From Bacteroidales bacterium (GTDB taxonomy: Bacteria > Bacteroidota > Bacteroidia > Bacteroidales > AUK083), in assembly GCA_021158345.1 (NCBI GenBank), contig JAGGUV010000185.1, forward strand, positions 1-33,776: a stretch of DNA of 33,776 bases, given 5' to 3'. The notes below the pieces were generated by a model. It did no database searches. It was not told the origin of the DNA and was given only the letters and a program-made list of their open reading frames with translations. Positions 27,003 through 33,776 of the stretch are shown piece after piece (positions within the stretch are counted from its first letter, which is position 1; each line of letters starts with the position of its first letter). The position numbers and the translations under genes were made by a program.

Positions 27003-27479
27003 ATGCCAAGACCTGAAAAAAATAGAATTGTTTATAAGCCACCATTATTTTCGGAGTTCAAACCTATAGGGATTGCAGGGAATTCATTAATTCAGGTTTT
27101 ATTAAGTCTTGACGAATATGAAGCATTCCGGTTATCTGATTATGAGGGGCTATCTCAAGCAGAAGCGGCAGAAGAAATGGAAATATCCAGGCCTACATTT
27201 ACAAGATTAATTGAAAAAGCGAGGAAAAAAATTGCAGATTTTATAGTTCAGGGAAAAGTTCTGACAATTGAAGGCGGGAACATCCATTTTAGACGAAATA
27301 TTATTAGGTGTTTAGATTGTGAACATATGTTTCAAATAAACATGAACGAATCCCTTACTGAGTGTCCAGATTGTGGCTCTAAAAATTTAATTAATCTCGC
27401 AGGTGGATTTGGTCATGGTCAATGCTGTGTAATAAATAGAAATAGAAGAAGAGGCGGAAATCGTGGAGGAAGAAGATAA
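27003..27479 (+). CDS. DUF134 (UPF0251) predicted DNA-binding protein with zinc ribbon and Arg/Gly tail
   Basis: The 158-residue protein starts with the DUF134 signature MPRPEKNR. A sigma-region-4-like helix-turn-helix spans about 35-80 (LSLDEYEAFRLSDYEGLSQA, then EEMEISRPTFTRLIEKARKK). Next comes a C-x2-C ... C-x2-C ribbon (Cys103, Cys106, Cys121, Cys124), then CysCys141-142 in GFGHGQCCVINR. The tail (RNRRRGGNRGGRR) is Arg/Gly-rich. DUF134 proteins usually lie beside NifX-type and MinD-ferredoxin genes, as here, and probably regulate them in response to a metal or Fe-S signal. I infer that it binds the AACATATGTT palindrome in its own promoter. Confidence 0.9.
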   Translation: MPRPEKNRIVYKPPLFSEFKPIGIAGNSLIQVLLSLDEYEAFRLSDYEGLSQAEAAEEMEISRPTFTRLIEKARKKIADFIVQGKVLTIEGGNIHFRRNIIRCLDCEHMFQINMNESLTECPDCGSKNLINLAGGFGHGQCCVINRNRRRGGNRGGRR

Positions 27480-27481
27480 AA

Positions 27482-27522
27482 TTCTACTTTGTAATAAATA
27501 AAGCTATTTAATAATAGTAGAA
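27482..27522 (+). other. Intergenic hairpin after the DUF134 gene
   Basis: TTCTACT (27482-27488) pairs with AGTAGAA (27516-27522). Inside, TAAATA (27495-27500) pairs with TATTTA (27505-27510) around an AAGC loop. No U-run follows, so this looks like an mRNA-processing or attenuation hairpin, not a full terminator. Confidence 0.4.
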
Positions 27523-27611
27523 CTAATGGCTTGAAGTTAATGTGGCGAAGTAAAATAATAAAAAGTAACTGTGAAATTTAAGAATAATAAATTTTGTACT
27601 AATTAATTAAA

Positions 27612-27619
27612 AAAGGAGG
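27612..27619 (+). promoter_or_regulatory. Strong Shine-Dalgarno sequence of the DUF5320 gene
   Basis: AAAGGAGG, followed by TTATT and the ATG at 27625, is a near-perfect anti-16S match. Almost no other gene here has one, which fixes this start and marks the gene as unusual. Confidence 0.85.
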
Positions 27620-27624
27620 TTATT

Positions 27625-27945
27625 ATGCCAAGAGGTGACAGAACAGGACCCGCAGGAAATGGTCCTATGACAGGAAGACAAATGGGTTATTGTGCAGGCA
27701 ATAATCAACCCGGATTTGTAAATTCCGGATATGGTAGCTATGGACGAGGTTTCGGACGTGGTCGTGGCTTCGGCATTGGTCGAGGTCTTGGCTATGGACG
27801 AGGGTTTGGATATTATAATTATCCAATTCCTCAATATTCTTCTTCTAACAAAGAAGCTCTTAAAAATGAAATCAATGCTTTAAAAGAACATTTATCATTT
27901 TTAGAAAAACAACTATCTGAATCTAAGGATAAAGATCAAAGTTAA
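27625..27945 (+). CDS. DUF5320 Gly/Arg-rich protein with C-terminal coiled coil
   Basis: The 106-residue protein opens with the DUF5320 signature MPRGDRTGPAGNGPMTGR and a single Cys in GYCAG (Cys23). Residues about 36-65 are a low-complexity Gly/Arg/Tyr/Phe stretch (GRGFGRGRGFGIGRGLGY), followed by a Tyr/Pro linker and a C-terminal coiled coil (SNKEALKNEINALKEHLSFL, then LEKQL, about 74-98). DUF5320 proteins are small, of unknown function, and common near NifX/MinD-ferredoxin genes of anaerobes. The strong Shine-Dalgarno sequence sets the start. The base composition is visibly more GC-rich than its neighbours because of the Gly/Arg codons. An intrinsic terminator follows directly. Confidence 0.88.
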   Translation: MPRGDRTGPAGNGPMTGRQMGYCAGNNQPGFVNSGYGSYGRGFGRGRGFGIGRGLGYGRGFGYYNYPIPQYSSSNKEALKNEINALKEHLSFLEKQLSESKDKDQS

Positions 27946-27976
27946 AAGGCAGGCATTATTTTATTGCCTGCTTTTA
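27944..27976 (+). terminator. Intrinsic terminator after the DUF5320 gene
   Basis: GCAGGCA (27949-27955) and TGCCTGC (27965-27971) form a 7-bp GC-rich stem with a 9-nt loop. It is extended by A4/T4 pairing around one bulged G and followed by TTTTAAT. It overlaps the stop codon, so the gene is probably made as a separate, abundant short mRNA, with partial read-through downstream. Confidence 0.75.
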
Positions 27977-28000
27977 ATAAAAATTAAACATTAAAAAAAA

Positions 28001-28219
28001 ATGAACAATAGAAGAAATAATGCTCCGGGTACAGGACGAGGTCTTGGACGCGGTGGCGGCCGTGGTCGTAATAACGGTGGTGCTTTTGGGACAGGAGGTT
28101 TTTGCGTATGTGCAAAATGTGGCACAAAAATACCTCATCAACAAGGCGTTAAATGCACTAATATCAAATGCCCTGAATGTGGTCATACTATGGTAAGAGA
28201 AGAATTATTGAATAGATAA
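28001..28219 (+). CDS. Small Gly/Arg-rich zinc-ribbon protein
   Basis: This 72-residue protein has a basic Gly/Arg N-terminus (residues 1-32, including TGRGLGRGGGRGRNNGG) and a compact metal site: FCVCAKCG with Cys35, Cys37 and Cys40, then Cys52, Cys57 and Cys60 (CPECGH), plus His46 and His62 as possible ligands. I recognise no named family, though similar small Cys-rich ribbons are seen beside DUF5320 and MinD-ferredoxin genes. Parts of the DNA (GGACGAGGTCTTGG) are near-identical to the DUF5320 gene, which suggests a shared origin of the Gly/Arg segment. It could bind a metal or nucleic acid for the neighbouring cluster-assembly proteins. Confidence 0.78.
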   Translation: MNNRRNNAPGTGRGLGRGGGRGRNNGGAFGTGGFCVCAKCGTKIPHQQGVKCTNIKCPECGHTMVREELLNR

Positions 28220-28233
28220 ATTGATATGTTGCC

Positions 28234-28276
28234 TGCCCCATGGAATATTTAGCTTATAAAACTATTCCATAGGGCA
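28234..28276 (+). other. Long mismatched hairpin before the MinD-ferredoxin genes
   Basis: ATGGAATA (28240-28247) pairs with TATTCCAT (28263-28270). One C/A mismatch follows outward, then TGCCC pairs with GGGCA, for a stem of about 13 pairs and a 15-nt loop. No U-run follows. It lies 31 bp before the ATG at 28307 and may be an attenuator, an mRNA-stabilising hairpin or an operator. Confidence 0.5.
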
Positions 28277-28306
28277 AACAATATCTTACAAATAAATATT
28301 TTATAT

Positions 28307-29173
28307 ATGAAAATAGCTATTGCTAGTGGAAAGGGCGGCACAGGAAAGACAACTCTTTCTACTAATCTTGCTGCATATATTGCAGAAAGTCAAAAAGTCG
28401 TTTTAAGTGACCTTGATGTAGAAGAGCCTAACTCGGGGTTATTTATCAAAGGAGCTCTTATTAAAGAAGAGAATAAATTTACAATGAAACCTGAATGGAA
28501 AGAAGACAAATGCACATTATGTGGATTATGTCAGGAAGTGTGTAATTATAATGCAATAGTAAAATTAGGTAACGAGATTGTTGTTTTTCCTGAATTATGC
28601 CACAGTTGTTATGCTTGCTCTGAGCTATGTCCTACCAATGCTTTGCCAATGGTTCCTCAAAAAATGGGAGTGCTTAAACATTTTGAAAAAAATGGCATAA
28701 GTTTTATTGAAAGCAGGTTGGATATTGGTCAGGAACAGGCAGTTCCATTAATAGCACAAACATTAGAATTTGTTGATGAAAATTTTCTTGACACTTCAAT
28801 TAAATTATATGATTCGCCTCCAGGAACTTCATGTCCTGTTATAGAAGCTACAAAAGATGCTGATTTTATAATACTAATAACAGAACCCACCCCATTTGGT
28901 TTTAATGACCTTAAACTCGCTATTGAAACAATGAAGAAATTAGAGAAAAAATTCGCAGTAGTGATAAACCGTTTTGGCATTGGAAATGATGATGTTGTTG
29001 AATACTGCGAAAAGGAAAATATCCCATTAATAGCAAAAATTCCTAATAACCGGAAAGTTGCAGAATTATATTCAAGAGGAGAATTAATTTATGATAAAAT
29101 TCCCGAAGTAAAACAAGAATTGAAAAAAATCACTGATTATATTTTAAAAATATTAAAACCCAATAAAGCATAA
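28307..29173 (+). CDS. MinD/ParA-type P-loop ATPase with inserted 2x[4Fe-4S] ferredoxin domain (first copy)
   Basis: This is a 288-residue SIMIBI-class ATPase of COG1149. The deviant Walker A motif is GKGGTGKTT (8-16) with the signature lysine, and LSDLDVEEPN (33-42) contains the Walker A' Asp. A ferredoxin domain is inserted at about 60-115, with Cys69/72/75/79 and Cys98/101/104/108, both as CxxCxxCxxxC. The switch region is YDSPPGTSCPVIEA (168-181), whose Cys176 may bridge a transferred cluster, as in Mrp/Nbp35-type carriers. Such ATPases occur in pairs beside NifX-family proteins, including in ORP-type loci. The next copy overlaps its stop by one base (TAATG). It likely moves or inserts a metal cluster in an ATP-dependent way. 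Confidence 0.93.
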   Translation: MKIAIASGKGGTGKTTLSTNLAAYIAESQKVVLSDLDVEEPNSGLFIKGALIKEENKFTMKPEWKEDKCTLCGLCQEVCNYNAIVKLGNEIVVFPELCHSCYACSELCPTNALPMVPQKMGVLKHFEKNGISFIESRLDIGQEQAVPLIAQTLEFVDENFLDTSIKLYDSPPGTSCPVIEATKDADFIILITEPTPFGFNDLKLAIETMKKLEKKFAVVINRFGIGNDDVVEYCEKENIPLIAKIPNNRKVAELYSRGELIYDKIPEVKQELKKITDYILKILKPNKA

Positions 29174-30048
29174 TGAAAGAGATTGTAATTATTTCGGGCA
29201 AAGGCGGTACAGGAAAAACATCTATCACTGCATCATTTGCTTATCTTGGAGGAAAAGATATTGTTGTTGCAGATTGCGATGTAGATGCTGCTGACATGCA
29301 CTTGCTTATGAAACCTGATTATTCAAAATCAGAAGACTTTTATAGTGGAGAAATTGCTAAAATTGATCAGGAAAAATGTATTAAATGCGGAAAATGTGCT
29401 GACGTATGCCGTTTTGATGCTATTCCTGTTATTAATAACCAATATGTTGTAAAGCCGTTAAATTGCGAAGGCTGCGGATATTGCGCAAGAGTGTGCCCGG
29501 TTAATGCAATTAATATGTTACCTCAGAAAGCAGGTCAGTGGTTTATCTCTAACACTAAAGCCGACAATGTTTTAGTACATGCAAAACTTGGTATTGGCGA
29601 TGATAACTCAGGTAAACTCGTTGCCAAAGTAAAAAAAGAAGCTAAACAGATTGCTGAAAACACGAACAAAAATATTACTGTTGTTGACGGGTCTCCCGGT
29701 ATTGGATGTCCTGTAATTTCATCAATTTCAGGTGCTGATTTTGTCGTTTTGGTAACAGAGCCTAGTATTTCCGGTCTCCACGATTTAAAACGTGTTTATA
29801 AATTAGTTGAAAAATTTAAAATCAAAGCAGGGTGTATTATCAACAAAGCAAATATCAATACTGAAGTTTCTGAAAAAATTAAGAAATTTCTTAAAGAAGA
29901 AAATATTGTTTATATCTCAAGTTTGCCTTATGATGAAACTTTTACAAAGGCTATGACTAACGGACAGACAATTGTTGAATACGGAGAAAGTGATTTAAAA
30001 AAATTAATTGTTGAGAGCTGGGAAAAAGTAAAGAAACTTGCAAACTAA
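29173..30048 (+). CDS. MinD/ParA-type P-loop ATPase with inserted 2x[4Fe-4S] ferredoxin domain (second copy)
   Basis: This is a paralogue of the preceding gene (291 residues) with the same layout. Walker A GKGGTGKTS is at 9-17 and ADCDVDAADMH (33-43) is the A' region. The ferredoxin insert has Cys69/72/75/79 and Cys98/101/104/108, exactly the same positions as in its neighbour. VDGSPGIGCPVISS (171-184) is the switch region with Cys179. The sequences outside the motifs differ, so the copies are old rather than a recent duplication, and probably form a heterodimer. Its ATG overlaps the stop codon of the first copy by one base, giving coupled, near-equal synthesis. The NifX-family gene follows after 131 bp. 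Confidence 0.93.
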   Translation: MKEIVIISGKGGTGKTSITASFAYLGGKDIVVADCDVDAADMHLLMKPDYSKSEDFYSGEIAKIDQEKCIKCGKCADVCRFDAIPVINNQYVVKPLNCEGCGYCARVCPVNAINMLPQKAGQWFISNTKADNVLVHAKLGIGDDNSGKLVAKVKKEAKQIAENTNKNITVVDGSPGIGCPVISSISGADFVVLVTEPSISGLHDLKRVYKLVEKFKIKAGCIINKANINTEVSEKIKKFLKEENIVYISSLPYDETFTKAMTNGQTIVEYGESDLKKLIVESWEKVKKLAN

Positions 30049-30179
30049 TCAAATAAAGAAACAAAGGAATTATAAAATATTCTTAATTTTATTTTCAACT
30101 TTAGAAATATTTTGTATATTGCATTAAATTATCAACCGAAAAAAGCACATTATAAATTTAATTTTAAAAAAGAATAAAA

Positions 30180-30518
30180 ATGAAAATAGCGTTCACAACA
30201 AAAGGAGAAAAGTGGGAATCGATGATTGACCCACGTTTTGGCAGAACAGAATTTATATTAATTTATGAAGAAGAGAAAGATGCTTTTATCTCTTTTGATA
30301 ACAGAGATATTGAACAAGAAGCACATGGTGCAGGACCTAAGACATCACAAGTTATTTATGATTTAAAACCTGATGTACTAATAACAGGAAACGGACCCGG
30401 AGGAAATGCTGCTTCTATATTAGAAAGAATGAATATTAAAATCTTTACAGGAGCAGGCAACATGACTGTAAAGGAGGCTTATGAAGCTTATAAAAAAGGG
30501 ACATTAAAAGAGTTTTAA
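30180..30518 (+). CDS. NifX/NifB-family (dinitrogenase iron-molybdenum cofactor type) metal-cluster-binding protein
   Basis: This 112-residue single-domain protein is of the Nitro_FeMo-Co family, with an RNase-H-like fold. Family features: MKIAFTT at the start, then DPRFGRTEFILIYE (17-30), DVLITGNGPGGNAASIL (65-81) and the ending GAGNMTVKEAYEAYKKGTL. Small proteins of this type bind Fe-Mo or, in the Desulfovibrio orange protein, a Mo-Cu-S cluster. His49 and the Met/Cys content fit cluster contact only loosely; there is no Cys. No nitrogenase gene is present, so nitrogen fixation is not implied. It lies 131 bp after the MinD-ferredoxin pair and 11 bp before the DUF59 gene. I infer that it is the acceptor or carrier of the cluster handled by those ATPases. 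Confidence 0.92.
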   Translation: MKIAFTTKGEKWESMIDPRFGRTEFILIYEEEKDAFISFDNRDIEQEAHGAGPKTSQVIYDLKPDVLITGNGPGGNAASILERMNIKIFTGAGNMTVKEAYEAYKKGTLKEF

Positions 30519-30529
30519 TTTTTTTCGCT

Positions 30530-30820
30530 ATGAAGACAAAAGAAGAAATAATAAGTACAATTTCAAAAGTTAAACATCCGGCTATTGATTTTTCATTACT
30601 CGAATTGGGTATAGTTAAAGACATAGAAATAACAGAAAACAATGTTAAAGTATGCTTTGCTTTTCCTTTTCCCGGAATTCCAATAGCAGAGATGCTTATT
30701 AATTCTATTGCCACGCCTGTTAAAGCCATGGGTTTAAATTTTGAATATACTGTTGTTGATATGACAGAAGAAGAAAAATTAAAATTTTTAGACATGGAAA
30801 ATAAAGCATGGAAAGGCTAA
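30530..30820 (+). CDS. DUF59/MIP18-family iron-sulfur assembly protein
   Basis: This is a 96-residue protein of the DUF59 (MIP18, SufT/PaaD-like) fold: EEIISTISKVKHPAIDFSLL (5-24), ELGIVKDIEITENNVKVCF, and a long final helix region. The family helps load Fe-S clusters and often forms the N-terminal domain of Mrp ATPases. Here it is free-standing and co-transcribed with the NifX-family gene (11-bp gap), which suggests it works with the MinD-ferredoxin ATPases in trans. The usual DPE motif is changed to KHPAIDFSL, and the single Cys42 lies in a beta strand (VCFAFPFPG). The gene ends about 60 bp before the cupin gene. Confidence 0.82.
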   Translation: MKTKEEIISTISKVKHPAIDFSLLELGIVKDIEITENNVKVCFAFPFPGIPIAEMLINSIATPVKAMGLNFEYTVVDMTEEEKLKFLDMENKAWKG

Positions 30821-30879
30821 AATTGCTAAATATTTTTTCGTATTCTATTGACTAATAATTAAAAACAGAAAGGAATATT

Positions 30880-31200
30880 ATGGAAAATTTAATGAATTTG
30901 TACAATGATTTAGGCTGGGAAGATGCAGATGAGTATTTCAAAGGAACGAAAAGAAAAGTACTAAGAGATGATAAAGGAGGAAGAACTGTTCTATTAAAAT
31001 TACCAAAAGGATTTTATATGTCTTTACATTCTCATATTACTACTGAGCAAAATTTTGTTCTTGATGGAGAATACCAAAGTAATGGCAAAAATTTTCCTGT
31101 GGGCTCATATCAAATTTTTAAACCTGGAGATGAACATGGACCATTTGAATCAAAAAACGGCGCTTTAATCCTGGTTATTTGGGACCCAGTAAAATCATAA
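30880..31200 (+). CDS. Small cupin-domain protein (metal-binding)
   Basis: This 106-residue single cupin has likely metal ligands His50, His52 and Glu56 (LHSHITTEQNFVL) in motif 1, and His86 in motif 2 (FKPGDEHGPFES). The build is like the ChrR/anti-sigma cupin or quercetinase-like small cupins, and the substrate is unknown. The ATG is preceded by AAAGGA, a weak Shine-Dalgarno sequence. It follows the DUF59 gene by about 60 bp on the same strand and may belong to the same operon, possibly as a metal sensor or detoxifying enzyme. No signal peptide is present. Confidence 0.85.
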   Translation: MENLMNLYNDLGWEDADEYFKGTKRKVLRDDKGGRTVLLKLPKGFYMSLHSHITTEQNFVLDGEYQSNGKNFPVGSYQIFKPGDEHGPFESKNGALILVIWDPVKS

Positions 31201-31340
31201 TTTATAATTTTAATTTTTTTTAAACACCTTGTATATTTCTATACAGAGCAGCTAAGTGTATGTATAAAAATAAAATTTTTAGATGTTATTTTTTTAGACT
31301 TAAATAATTGAATATTTTTTATTTACAAAACTACTAATAG

Positions 31341-31751
31341 ATGAAATTATTAATGATTTATATGAAAAGTTTTTCGTATAATCCAACAATAAAAACAGTT
31401 GAATCAATGCCTGACTTTACAGAGGAGAAAAAATTTGAAAATGTGCAGGCTGCCTTTATTCAGGTTGAAAAAGAAGATGTAGAAAACGAAACCTCGGTAA
31501 AAAAGAAATTATTGAAAAATCTTAAATGGATTGCAGGAAAAAATAATACAAGAAAAATTATTTTACATTCTTTTGCTCATTTGTCAGAAAGCAAGGCTGA
31601 ACCTGAATTTACAAAATCAATATTTGATAATATTGAGGAAAGACTTAAAAATTCAGGATTTGATGTAGAACAAACTCCATTTGGATATTTTTTAGATTTA
31701 AATATTGATGCTCCTGGGTATTCTTTGGCAAGAGTATTTAAAAATTTGTAA
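31341..31751 (+). CDS. Free-standing archaeal-type threonyl-tRNA synthetase editing domain
   Basis: The 136-residue protein matches the N-terminal editing domain of archaeal ThrRS, a fold shared with D-aminoacyl-tRNA deacylases. Recognisable segments: MKLLMIYMKSFSYNP at the start, VQAAFIQVEKEDVEN (35-49), the RKIILHSFAHLSESKA helix-strand (71-86) and TPFGYFLDL (112-120). In archaea the domain removes serine mischarged on tRNA-Thr; free-standing versions act in trans. The protein ends after this domain, with no synthetase part nearby. The Lys that follows FGYY in archaeal domains appears replaced (FGYFLDL), so activity or specificity may differ. It stands alone, 140 bp after the cupin. Confidence 0.8.
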   Translation: MKLLMIYMKSFSYNPTIKTVESMPDFTEEKKFENVQAAFIQVEKEDVENETSVKKKLLKNLKWIAGKNNTRKIILHSFAHLSESKAEPEFTKSIFDNIEERLKNSGFDVEQTPFGYFLDLNIDAPGYSLARVFKNL

Positions 31752-31837
31752 CTTTTTATAATGGTAAAGTATATAAATTACAAGGTAATAAGTTAAAAAA
31801 AATAAAAAGATGAAACATCCATGGACAAAGGGAATAT

Positions 31838-31879
31838 GATTTTAGATTTATGATTTTAGATTTTAGATTTTAGATTTAA
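31838..31879. repeat. 7-bp tandem repeat (GATTTTA), six units
   Basis: Six head-to-tail heptamers run from 31838 to 31879: GATTTTA, GATTTAT, three times GATTTTA, and GATTTAA. They lie in the 344-bp gene-free spacer 31752-32095. Such a microsatellite can change copy number by slippage. Confidence 0.85.
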
Positions 31880-31888
31880 TTTGGACAC

Positions 31889-31969
31889 ACCCTGTACATT
31901 TCACCCTGATATGCTTCGCTACAGGGTAAATTACAGGGCAAGCCCTGTACACATACGTTACAGGGCAAG
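31889..31969. repeat. Cluster of CCCTGTA/TACAGGG inverted and direct repeats
   Basis: TACAGGGC (31932-31939) and GCCCTGTA (31942-31949) form an 8-bp hairpin with a 2-nt loop. ACCCTG (31903-31908) pairs with CAGGGT (31922-31927). TTACAGGGCAAG occurs twice (31931-31942 and 31958-31969), and another CCCTGTACA lies at 31890-31898. The pattern suggests a dispersed, REP-like intergenic element. I see no ORF in this spacer. Confidence 0.7.
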
Positions 31970-32095
31970 TAAGAGTATGATTATATTTTGAAATTGGAAA
32001 CAGGAAATTAGAAAAAAATCCTATAAAAGCATAATTTTAAATATCTAATTTTTAACATTACTAATAAAATTTTTAAAAGATAAATATTTAATGTA

Positions 32096-32779
32096 ATGAT
32101 GAGTCAACTACAAGAAAATAATAAAATAAAAAAATTATACCCTGACTCAGGAGTTGAATTAAAAAAATTTACTGCAAGACATTATGATAAAATAATGAAT
32201 ATTGCCTCTTTTGGCAGATATAATAGCTTTATTAACAAAGCTATTGCAGATTTAGATATTAAACAAAATGATAAAATTCTTGATCTTGCCTGTGGTACAG
32301 GAAGAAATATTTTATTAATGAATAAATATGTATCTGATAATTCTTTGCTGATAGGATTAGACATTTCTAAAGACATGGAAAAACAATTTATAATAAATTG
32401 TAATAAATTTTCAAATATTAAATTTATCAACAAAAGAATTGATCAGTTATTTAATTTTGAACAAAAGTTCGACAAAGTTTTTATTAGCTTTGCCATACAC
32501 GGATTTCCTCACAAAATAAGAAAAATTATAATCGAAAATGCTTACAATAATTTAAAACCCGGTGGTAGTTTTAACATACTTGATTTTGCTGAATTTAACA
32601 TCAATAAAATGCCGTTTCTACATCGTTTTATCTTTAAAAAAATAGAATGTAAATATGCTTTTGATTTTATCGAAAAAGATTGGAAAGATATATTAAAAGG
32701 ATTTGGTTTTGATAATTTTAAAGAAAAGTTTTATTTCAAAAACTATGTTCGTTTACTTAAAGCAGAAAAACAATGTTAA
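32096..32779 (+). CDS. Class I SAM-dependent methyltransferase (UbiE/MenG-like)
   Basis: This is a 227-residue methyltransferase with motif I ILDLACGTGRN (61-71), the acidic loop LIGLDISKDM (85-94) and a post-I region NLKPGGSFNILDF typical of the Methyltransf_11/25 group. The substrate is not evident. It lacks the Cys set expected of arsenite methyltransferase (ArsM). An ATG at 32096 is followed by a second at 32099; either may serve. Its stop overlaps the start of the metal exporter by 7 bp, so the two are translationally coupled, and its job is probably linked to that exporter's substrate. Confidence 0.85.
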   Translation: MMSQLQENNKIKKLYPDSGVELKKFTARHYDKIMNIASFGRYNSFINKAIADLDIKQNDKILDLACGTGRNILLMNKYVSDNSLLIGLDISKDMEKQFIINCNKFSNIKFINKRIDQLFNFEQKFDKVFISFAIHGFPHKIRKIIIENAYNNLKPGGSFNILDFAEFNINKMPFLHRFIFKKIECKYAFDFIEKDWKDILKGFGFDNFKEKFYFKNYVRLLKAEKQC

Positions 32780-33776
32780 ATGAAATTTATCAAATATTAA
32801 AAGAAGCCTTAATGATAACAGGCTTTGTTTTTTTGATGATGTTGATAATTGAATATATTAATGTTCAGACAAATGGATTATGGCAAAAAAATATTTTTAG
32901 AAGCAAATGGGGACAATACTTATTTGCAGGTATTTTAGGGGCTATACCTGGATGTCTCGGCGCATTTACATCTGTTGCTTTATTTTCTCACAGATTGATA
33001 TCTTTTGGCGCAATTGTAACAACAATGATAGCCACAAGTGGTGATGAAGCCTTTGTTATGTTTGCCAGGTTCCCTCAAAAAGCTTTATTGCTTACTCTGA
33101 TAATTCTAACAGTAGGAATATTTGCCGGTTACATCACAGATAAAATGCCTTTTTCAAAAAAAATTGAAAACATATTTATAAAAAATAAATTATCTATCCA
33201 TGCAGAAGAACAATGTAAATGTTTTCAAAAAGATGATTTTTTTCAACACATCAGAAAACCTTCATTATACAGAATAATTTTAACAATAATTATAATATGT
33301 TTTTTAGTGGCTTTACTCACAGGCCTGATTGCAGGGAACGCAAAGCAATGGATAAAAATTTCATTATTAATAACAATACTATTTTCTTTGTTTGTGGTTA
33401 TAAGCGTACCTGAACATTTCCTTAAAAGACACCTTTGGGAGCATATTGTAAAAAAACATATCCTGCGAATATTTTTATGGACATTCGGTACTATGCTCGC
33501 AATACATTTTTTAATGTATTTTATGGATATTGAATCATGGATAACAGACAATATGCTTATTGTTATGATTATTGCTGTCTTGGTTGGAATAATTCCTGAG
33601 TCAGGGCCTCATTTGATATTCGTTACTTTATTTGCACAAGGGACTATCCCTTTTAGCATACTTTTGGCTAGCTCAATATCCCAAGACGGACATGGTATGC
33701 TTCCACTTCTTGCTGAATCAAAAAAAGGATTTTTAGCAGTAAAAACTGTTAATATAATTTTTGCGTTTATTATTGG
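32773..33776 (+). CDS. ArsP_2-type 10-TM heavy-metal exporter / putative manganese transporter, N-terminal part
   Basis: This ORF is open to the right edge (334 residues visible). I translated it from the ATG at 32773, which overlaps the methyltransferase stop by 7 bp. It is a polytopic membrane protein of two related halves. Each half carries a Gly/Pro loop: GAIPGCLGAF (56-65) and GIIPESGPH (272-280), the latter followed by SQDGHGMLPLLAE. Between the halves lies a cytosolic loop with possible metal ligands (HAEEQCKCF, 143-151). These traits fit the family annotated as putative arsenic efflux or putative manganese transporter (ArsP_2). About eight membrane segments are visible. The metal cannot be told from sequence, and the C-terminus is cut off by the window. 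Confidence 0.82.
   Translation, partial: MLNEIYQILKEALMITGFVFLMMLIIEYINVQTNGLWQKNIFRSKWGQYLFAGILGAIPGCLGAFTSVALFSHRLISFGAIVTTMIATSGDEAFVMFARFPQKALLLTLIILTVGIFAGYITDKMPFSKKIENIFIKNKLSIHAEEQCKCFQKDDFFQHIRKPSLYRIILTIIIICFLVALLTGLIAGNAKQWIKISLLITILFSLFVVISVPEHFLKRHLWEHIVKKHILRIFLWTFGTMLAIHFLMYFMDIESWITDNMLIVMIIAVLVGIIPESGPHLIFVTLFAQGTIPFSILLASSISQDGHGMLPLLAESKKGFLAVKTVNIIFAFII

Follow-up and report, generated by a model that had tools for sequence, protein, structure and literature searches.

A stand-alone bacterial relative of the archaeal threonyl-tRNA synthetase editing domain with an altered predicted active site

We identified a free-standing protein of 136 aa in a member of the Bacteroidales which, judged from its sequence and its place in a tree, belongs to a distinct and large bacterial subfamily next to the editing domain of archaeal threonyl-tRNA synthetase (ThrRS). 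The reading that we favour, at somewhat better than even chances, is that it is a homodimeric aminoacyl-tRNA deacylase of DTD-like fold, which would act in trans, make use of the 2'-OH of the tRNA and have a substrate other than serine on tRNAThr. We infer the dimer, the binding of tRNA, the deacylation and the altered substrate. The gene lies near the end of the stretch of DNA analysed here (33,776 nucleotides of contig JAGGUV010000185.1, hereafter the window):

31341..31751, plus strand: stand-alone PF08915 protein (136 aa) with an ATG start, supported by profile match, structure search, model and dN/dS

The protein matches PF08915 (tRNA-Thr_ED) over profile positions 1-136 of 137 (E 1.1e-40). 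Comparison with this profile had been named beforehand as a possible refutation, and the score is 139.4 bits against a cut-off of 30.2. The solved structures nearest to it come from the editing domains of ThrRS in P. abyssi, M. jannaschii and A. pernix, that of P. abyssi being the top sequence match (E 7.9e-17). The window genome holds a single copy of the gene, which has no fusion partner. An earlier note on this DNA, which had recognized a free-standing ThrRS editing domain of archaeal type, is thus borne out on both counts. The strand opposite the reading frame is full of stops. Against five close relatives dN is low (about 0.07-0.11) relative to dS (about 0.9-1.8), giving dN/dS of about 0.06-0.08; the gene is therefore a selected one under strong purifying selection, which rules out a chance reading frame or a pseudogene. 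Readings as a plasmid-borne, phage or defence gene were dropped after a tblastn search of plasmids, a PHROG search and PADLOC, respectively, returned no match for the protein. An Rfam search over 30800-33776 gave no match either, so no RNA element was found beside the gene.

The protein is predicted to have a DTD-like fold, as the earlier note had proposed, closest to that of the P. abyssi editing domain. An AlphaFold2 model of the monomer, built from 58 family members, reached a mean pLDDT of 93.4 and a pTM of 0.88. A Foldseek search with this model placed 23 archaeal editing-domain chains first (1y2q: E 2e-15; by query length, TM 0.91), followed by DTD chains with TM of about 0.6-0.68. A differing fold, the other refutation named in the earlier note, thus did not arise.

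In the archaeal domain Lys121 (P. abyssi numbering) places the catalytic water, Glu134 reaches across the dimer to hold the amino group of the substrate, and Phe117 stacks on the adenine (PMC4491819; PMC3845328). We surveyed these positions in 123 stand-alone sequences of the main clade, of which 106 are of an FGYF kind (with a few duplicates of one locus) and 17 of an FGYLNEW kind. The corresponding elements of the window gene are:

31566..31586, plus strand: H76-S77-F78-A79-H80-L81-S82, predicted oxyanion-hole strand (F81/A82 of P. abyssi) with the equivalent of His83 kept; roles after PMC4491819 and PMC3845328
31677..31697, plus strand: P113-F-G-Y-F-L-D119, adenosine-stacking Phe and Gly kept; Tyr120 replaced by Phe117, Lys121 by Leu118 and Ala122 by Asp119
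31731..31733, plus strand: R131 at the position of the cross-subunit Glu134, a charge reversal

The adenosine-stacking residues F114 and G115 and the residues F78, A79 and H80 of the oxyanion-hole strand are present in the window protein; across the survey Phe81, His83 and Gly118 (P. abyssi numbering) are invariant (123/123), and the Phe117 position is F, Y, W or L. Where archaeal domains carry FGYY and a Lys, the window protein reads PFGYFLD. The Lys121 position is occupied by Leu in 101 sequences, by Asn in 19 and by other residues in the few left, and never by Lys. Counting all 124 stand-alone sequences this Lys is absent throughout, and it is present in two synthetase-fused domains; its loss, which had been remarked on for the window protein alone, is a fixed feature of the whole family. 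The Tyr120 position is Phe or Leu with few exceptions, and that of Glu134 is Arg or Lys in 123/123. New invariant or near-invariant residues, shared by both kinds, are K62, W63, K67, H76, S77, K85, D/E119 and F133. By motif alignment, H76 would correspond to the serine of DTD in contact with the 2'-OH, and S77 to the DTD glutamine beside the carbonyl.

In the proposed mechanism, Phe114-Gly115 would hold a charged tRNA by its 3'-terminal A76, the tRNA's own 2'-OH would activate the attacking water, and the main chain of F78-A79 would serve as oxyanion hole. The acyl group would differ from serine on tRNAThr, perhaps lacking a free positive amino group, because the pocket appears rebuilt: Lys121 to Leu/Asn, Tyr120 to Phe/Leu and Glu134 to Arg/Lys, with His76, Ser77 and Asp/Glu119 as new invariant residues. 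We consider a deacylase the best-supported reading, since the elements predicted to bind A76 and form the oxyanion hole are kept in 123/123 while the side chains that would contact the substrate change together. To this are added the full-length PF08915 match, the model resembling archaeal editing domains, purifying selection and a dtd gene next to the gene in three loci; moreover, among the bacterial domains found just two have the Tyr-Lys pair, and these are fused to SepRS or CysRS. Against a deacylase, K121M severely impairs archaeal domains and E135A inactivates that of M. jannaschii (PMC4491819), so that the family might have lost deacylation. Loss of the Lys need not mean lost activity, because DTD works with Met at that position (PMC4491819), and a joint change of the pocket that has persisted along long branches speaks for a changed substrate and against decay. 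Also speaking against a deacylase is the gene neighbourhood: among 122 loci surveyed there is no universal neighbour, and several of the genes found there suggest a metabolic role and not one in translation. Those of the window gene are:

27003..30820, plus strand: upstream cluster of metal/Fe-S type (DUF134, DUF5320, a small zinc-ribbon-like ORF, two Fer4/Mrp-type ATPases, NifX-like, DUF59), context only
30880..31200, plus strand: upstream cupin (ChrR-like), context only, near the domain in 6 of the 122 loci
32096..32779, plus strand: UbiE-like SAM methyltransferase, a recurrent direct downstream partner and possible functional link

The metal/Fe-S cluster failed as a conserved context, with two or more of its families near the PF08915 gene in only 18 of the 122 loci. 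A methyltransferase lies directly downstream in 16 loci. These include five (L073, L092, L176, L177 and L179) whose remaining neighbourhood is unlike that of the window; three of the five enzymes were compared with that of the window and share 39-42% identity with it. In a set of 59 relatives, 3/9 PF08915-positive genomes have a methyltransferase orthologue, versus 1/50 negative ones (p 0.0095). PADLOC matched the window methyltransferase to only part of a MADS model. A Sir2-family gene follows directly in six loci from several phyla (L061, L066, L072, L095, L170 and L190), and dtd (PF02580) directly follows the stand-alone gene in three Bacteroidales loci (L005:1037-1911 on the minus strand, L064 and L087), where the two genes could form a pair for tRNA quality control. 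Since none of them is universal, we take these neighbours as leads rather than proof. Two further features were seen around the methyltransferase gene. An AT-rich spacer with short tandem direct repeats (GATTTTAGATTTA) separates it from the domain gene in the window (31760-32090), compared with a gap of only 2-43 bases in relatives; and at 32773-33774 a membrane protein of ArsP_2/arsenic-efflux type overlaps its end and runs off the window, a gene type that recurs near the PF08915 gene in a few relatives.

The known jobs of the DTD-like fold are already taken in the window genome. Its only full ThrRS is of bacterial type (645 aa) and comprises TGS, SAD/N2, catalytic and anticodon domains; the HSSAH and VDLCKGPHIP motifs are intact, so that the check for N2 proposed in the earlier note found it complete. 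ThrRS scored over the cut-off in 42 of the 47 other PF08915-positive genomes searched; 41 of these enzymes align from the first or second model position onwards and thereby include N2; the remaining one begins at a contig edge. A regular DTD is encoded in the window genome, in 57 of the 60 genomes of the order set and in all ten PF08915-positive ones among them. Compensation for a missing N2 or a missing DTD is accordingly ruled out, both being present in positive genomes. SepCysS reaches no more than 47.6 bits in the window genome (G000), with a cut-off of 365; this is at noise level and led us to reject a SepCysS pathway there. In the other positive genomes searched, only G398 has a match over the cut-off and G714 a partial one. 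That these jobs are taken, by ThrRS with N2 and by DTD, counted in favour of a deacylase with a changed substrate.

The protein could alternatively be a back-up trans-editing factor for Ser-tRNAThr (or for mischarged Gly or Ala) beside N2, like crenarchaeal ThrRS-ed. The nearest match in both fold and sequence is indeed a Ser-tRNAThr editing domain, the Y120A/E134A variant of the P. abyssi domain keeps its discrimination between Ser and Thr, and archaeal domains also cut Gly-tRNAGly (PMC4491819). Nonetheless, a Lys to Met change severely impairs three archaeal domains (K121M; PMC4491819), every stand-alone sequence is without that Lys, and N2 is complete in the window genome and in the 41 others just mentioned. 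We therefore regard such a back-up as quite improbable, and Ser-tRNAThr editing, one of three options that the earlier note had offered, is left in a weak position. A second of these options, D-aminoacyl-tRNA deacylation, is not supported. The fold class is the same, the non-polar residue at the Lys position is as in DTD (PMC4491819) and dtd adjoins the gene in three loci, but the SQFTL and NXGP(V/F)T (Gly-cisPro) motifs, essential in DTD (PMC3845328), are missing: the corresponding positions read HSFAHLS and APGYSLARVFK, PF02580 is not among the Pfam matches, and a regular DTD is already in place. We hold a second DTD to be very unlikely. Editing of Ser- or Sep-tRNACys seems equally remote; it is brought to mind by stand-alone PF08915 proteins beside archaeal SepCysS and by domains fused to bacterial SepRS (PMC5424206; PMC8762117), as well as by G398 with two such domains (fused to SepRS and CysRS), yet SepCysS is confined to that genome (and in part G714) among the positive ones searched, and the fused domains keep the Lys that the window protein lacks. 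The third option, a new substrate, is the best supported of the three, given the family-wide replacement of Lys121, Tyr120 and Glu134 and the fact that the known jobs are taken.

Alternatively, the protein may have no role on tRNA and be a hydrolase or binding protein that has been repurposed and serves, alongside the methyltransferase next to it, a pathway of small-molecule or redox/metal type. The same family of methyltransferase found directly downstream in unrelated contexts, its association across relatives, the metal/Fe-S type cluster upstream in the window and the many new invariant residues are consistent with this. However, the elements for adenosine and for the oxyanion hole, which act on tRNA in the DTD-like fold, are retained, dtd adjoins the gene in some loci, and most loci have neither metal cluster nor methyltransferase, so that we judge a role away from tRNA unlikely. 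Returning to the deacylase, a more specific version can be put forward tentatively, at well below even chances: the family may be a further branch of the DTD-like fold, a widespread bacterial trans-editor. Its pocket, with Arg/Lys in place of the Glu that holds the substrate's amino group in the archaeal domain, would select an acyl group on tRNA that is acidic, N-blocked or non-proteinogenic, and in some lineages a dedicated methyltransferase or a sirtuin would act as the enzyme's partner.

Of 60 genomes sampled from the same order, a single one for each family and the window genome among them, 10 carry the gene; it was found in only 2 of 296 in a sample of the phylum, one of them the window genome, and in 29 of 247, 6 of 198 and 4 of 50 genomes of other samples; positive genomes are nearly all metagenome-assembled, and single contigs may be misbinned, a source of error that would leave the pattern unaccounted for. 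At least 544 loci encoding a PF08915 protein came out of a scan with each species represented by one genome, and record titles of the best 80 of these mention Bacteroidota, Chlorobiota, Aminicenantes, Spirochaetes, Cloacimonas, Deltaproteobacteria, Zixibacteria, Atribacteria and Melioribacteraceae. A tree was built from 105 sequences, one of them archaeal, over 136 columns that leave many forks unresolved; in it a long branch (100/100) splits 101 stand-alone sequences from the archaeal domain, two bacterial synthetase-fused domains and L145. The latter (L145:1489-2031, minus strand, genome G744) is itself stand-alone, reads FGWFN...KGHPLSR and groups with the synthetase-fused type as a possible intermediate. 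The window gene groups among Bacteroidales, where its nearest kin are 85-86% identical, and L024 from Aminicenantes sits next to its clade; cross-phylum placements of this kind suggest transfers among bacteria. The earlier note had suggested acquisition from archaea. As a recent event this is not supported, given the Bacteroidales kin and a family forming one clade over many bacterial phyla; an ancient archaeal source of the family, with one archaeal sequence in the tree, may still apply. One further candidate, L101, was dropped as a false match (E 1.6e-4) lying in a YggS-like reading frame.

PF08915 outside ThrRS has been described before, in archaeal ThrRS-ed, in archaeal proteins linked to SepCysS and in bacterial ED-SepRS fusions (PMC5424206; PMC8762117). 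With the N-terminal editing domain of archaeal ThrRS (P. abyssi 1y2q; M. jannaschii 4rrf; A. pernix ThrRS-2 4rr6) the window protein shares PF08915, the modelled fold (TM 0.91 to 1y2q), the FAH(L/S) strand and the adenosine-stacking Phe and Gly; it differs in being free-standing and bacterial, in the replacement of Lys121, Tyr120 and Glu134, in an identity of only about 29% and in its separate clade. Crenarchaeal ThrRS-ed, a Ser-tRNAThr hydrolase (NF011500), is a trans-acting editing protein with the same domain, but has in addition an anticodon-binding domain (PMC8762117), whereas the window protein consists of nothing but the domain and reaches 50 bits, the NF011500 cut-off being 362. The tRNA-Thr-ED proteins of archaea include a single-domain form; they and the ED-SepRS fusions are linked to SepRS/SepCysS and the fused ones found here keep the Tyr-Lys pair, while the window genome is without SepCysS. 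DTD and ATD (D-aminoacyl-tRNA and Animalia-specific tRNA deacylases) are likewise single domains of DTD-like fold, and DTD too has a residue other than Lys at position 121, but the window protein has neither the SQFTL nor the Gly-Pro motif, is more distant in the model (TM about 0.6-0.68) and belongs to a different sequence family. The bacterial N2 domain shares at most a possible task, Ser-tRNAThr editing; its fold is unrelated (PMC11295145) and it sits separately in the ThrRS of the window genome.

In the open-licence literature searched we found no description of a bacterial stand-alone PF08915 family without the Lys, which apparently has not been studied. That literature confines the DTD-like fold to DTD, ATD and the archaeal ThrRS domain, to which the bacterial branch would be an addition, and the name of PF08915, 'archaea-specific editing domain of ThrRS', is misleading for bacterial stand-alone genes. 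That a bacterial branch is conserved and has its pocket changed in a coordinated way would imply a charging error or tRNA-linked acyl group as yet unexamined, mostly in uncultured bacteria. Fused and stand-alone forms together offer a natural test of the roles of Lys121 and Glu134. Both fused forms come from G398. At L153:7587-9545 (plus strand) a PF08915 domain with the Lys (FGWYK) stands at the N-terminus of a complete CysRS (652 aa) and could edit Ser-tRNACys in cis; this fusion is not mentioned in the papers on tRNACys systems (PMC5424206; PMC8762117). At L154:6341-8444 (plus strand) SepCysS precedes a PF08915 domain that is joined to the beginning of SepRS; fusions of this kind are known (PMC8762117). 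The remainder of SepRS lies in a masked stretch; a 1122-aa reading frame that suggested a PilY1 fusion crosses this stretch and was rejected, the partner of the domain being SepRS.
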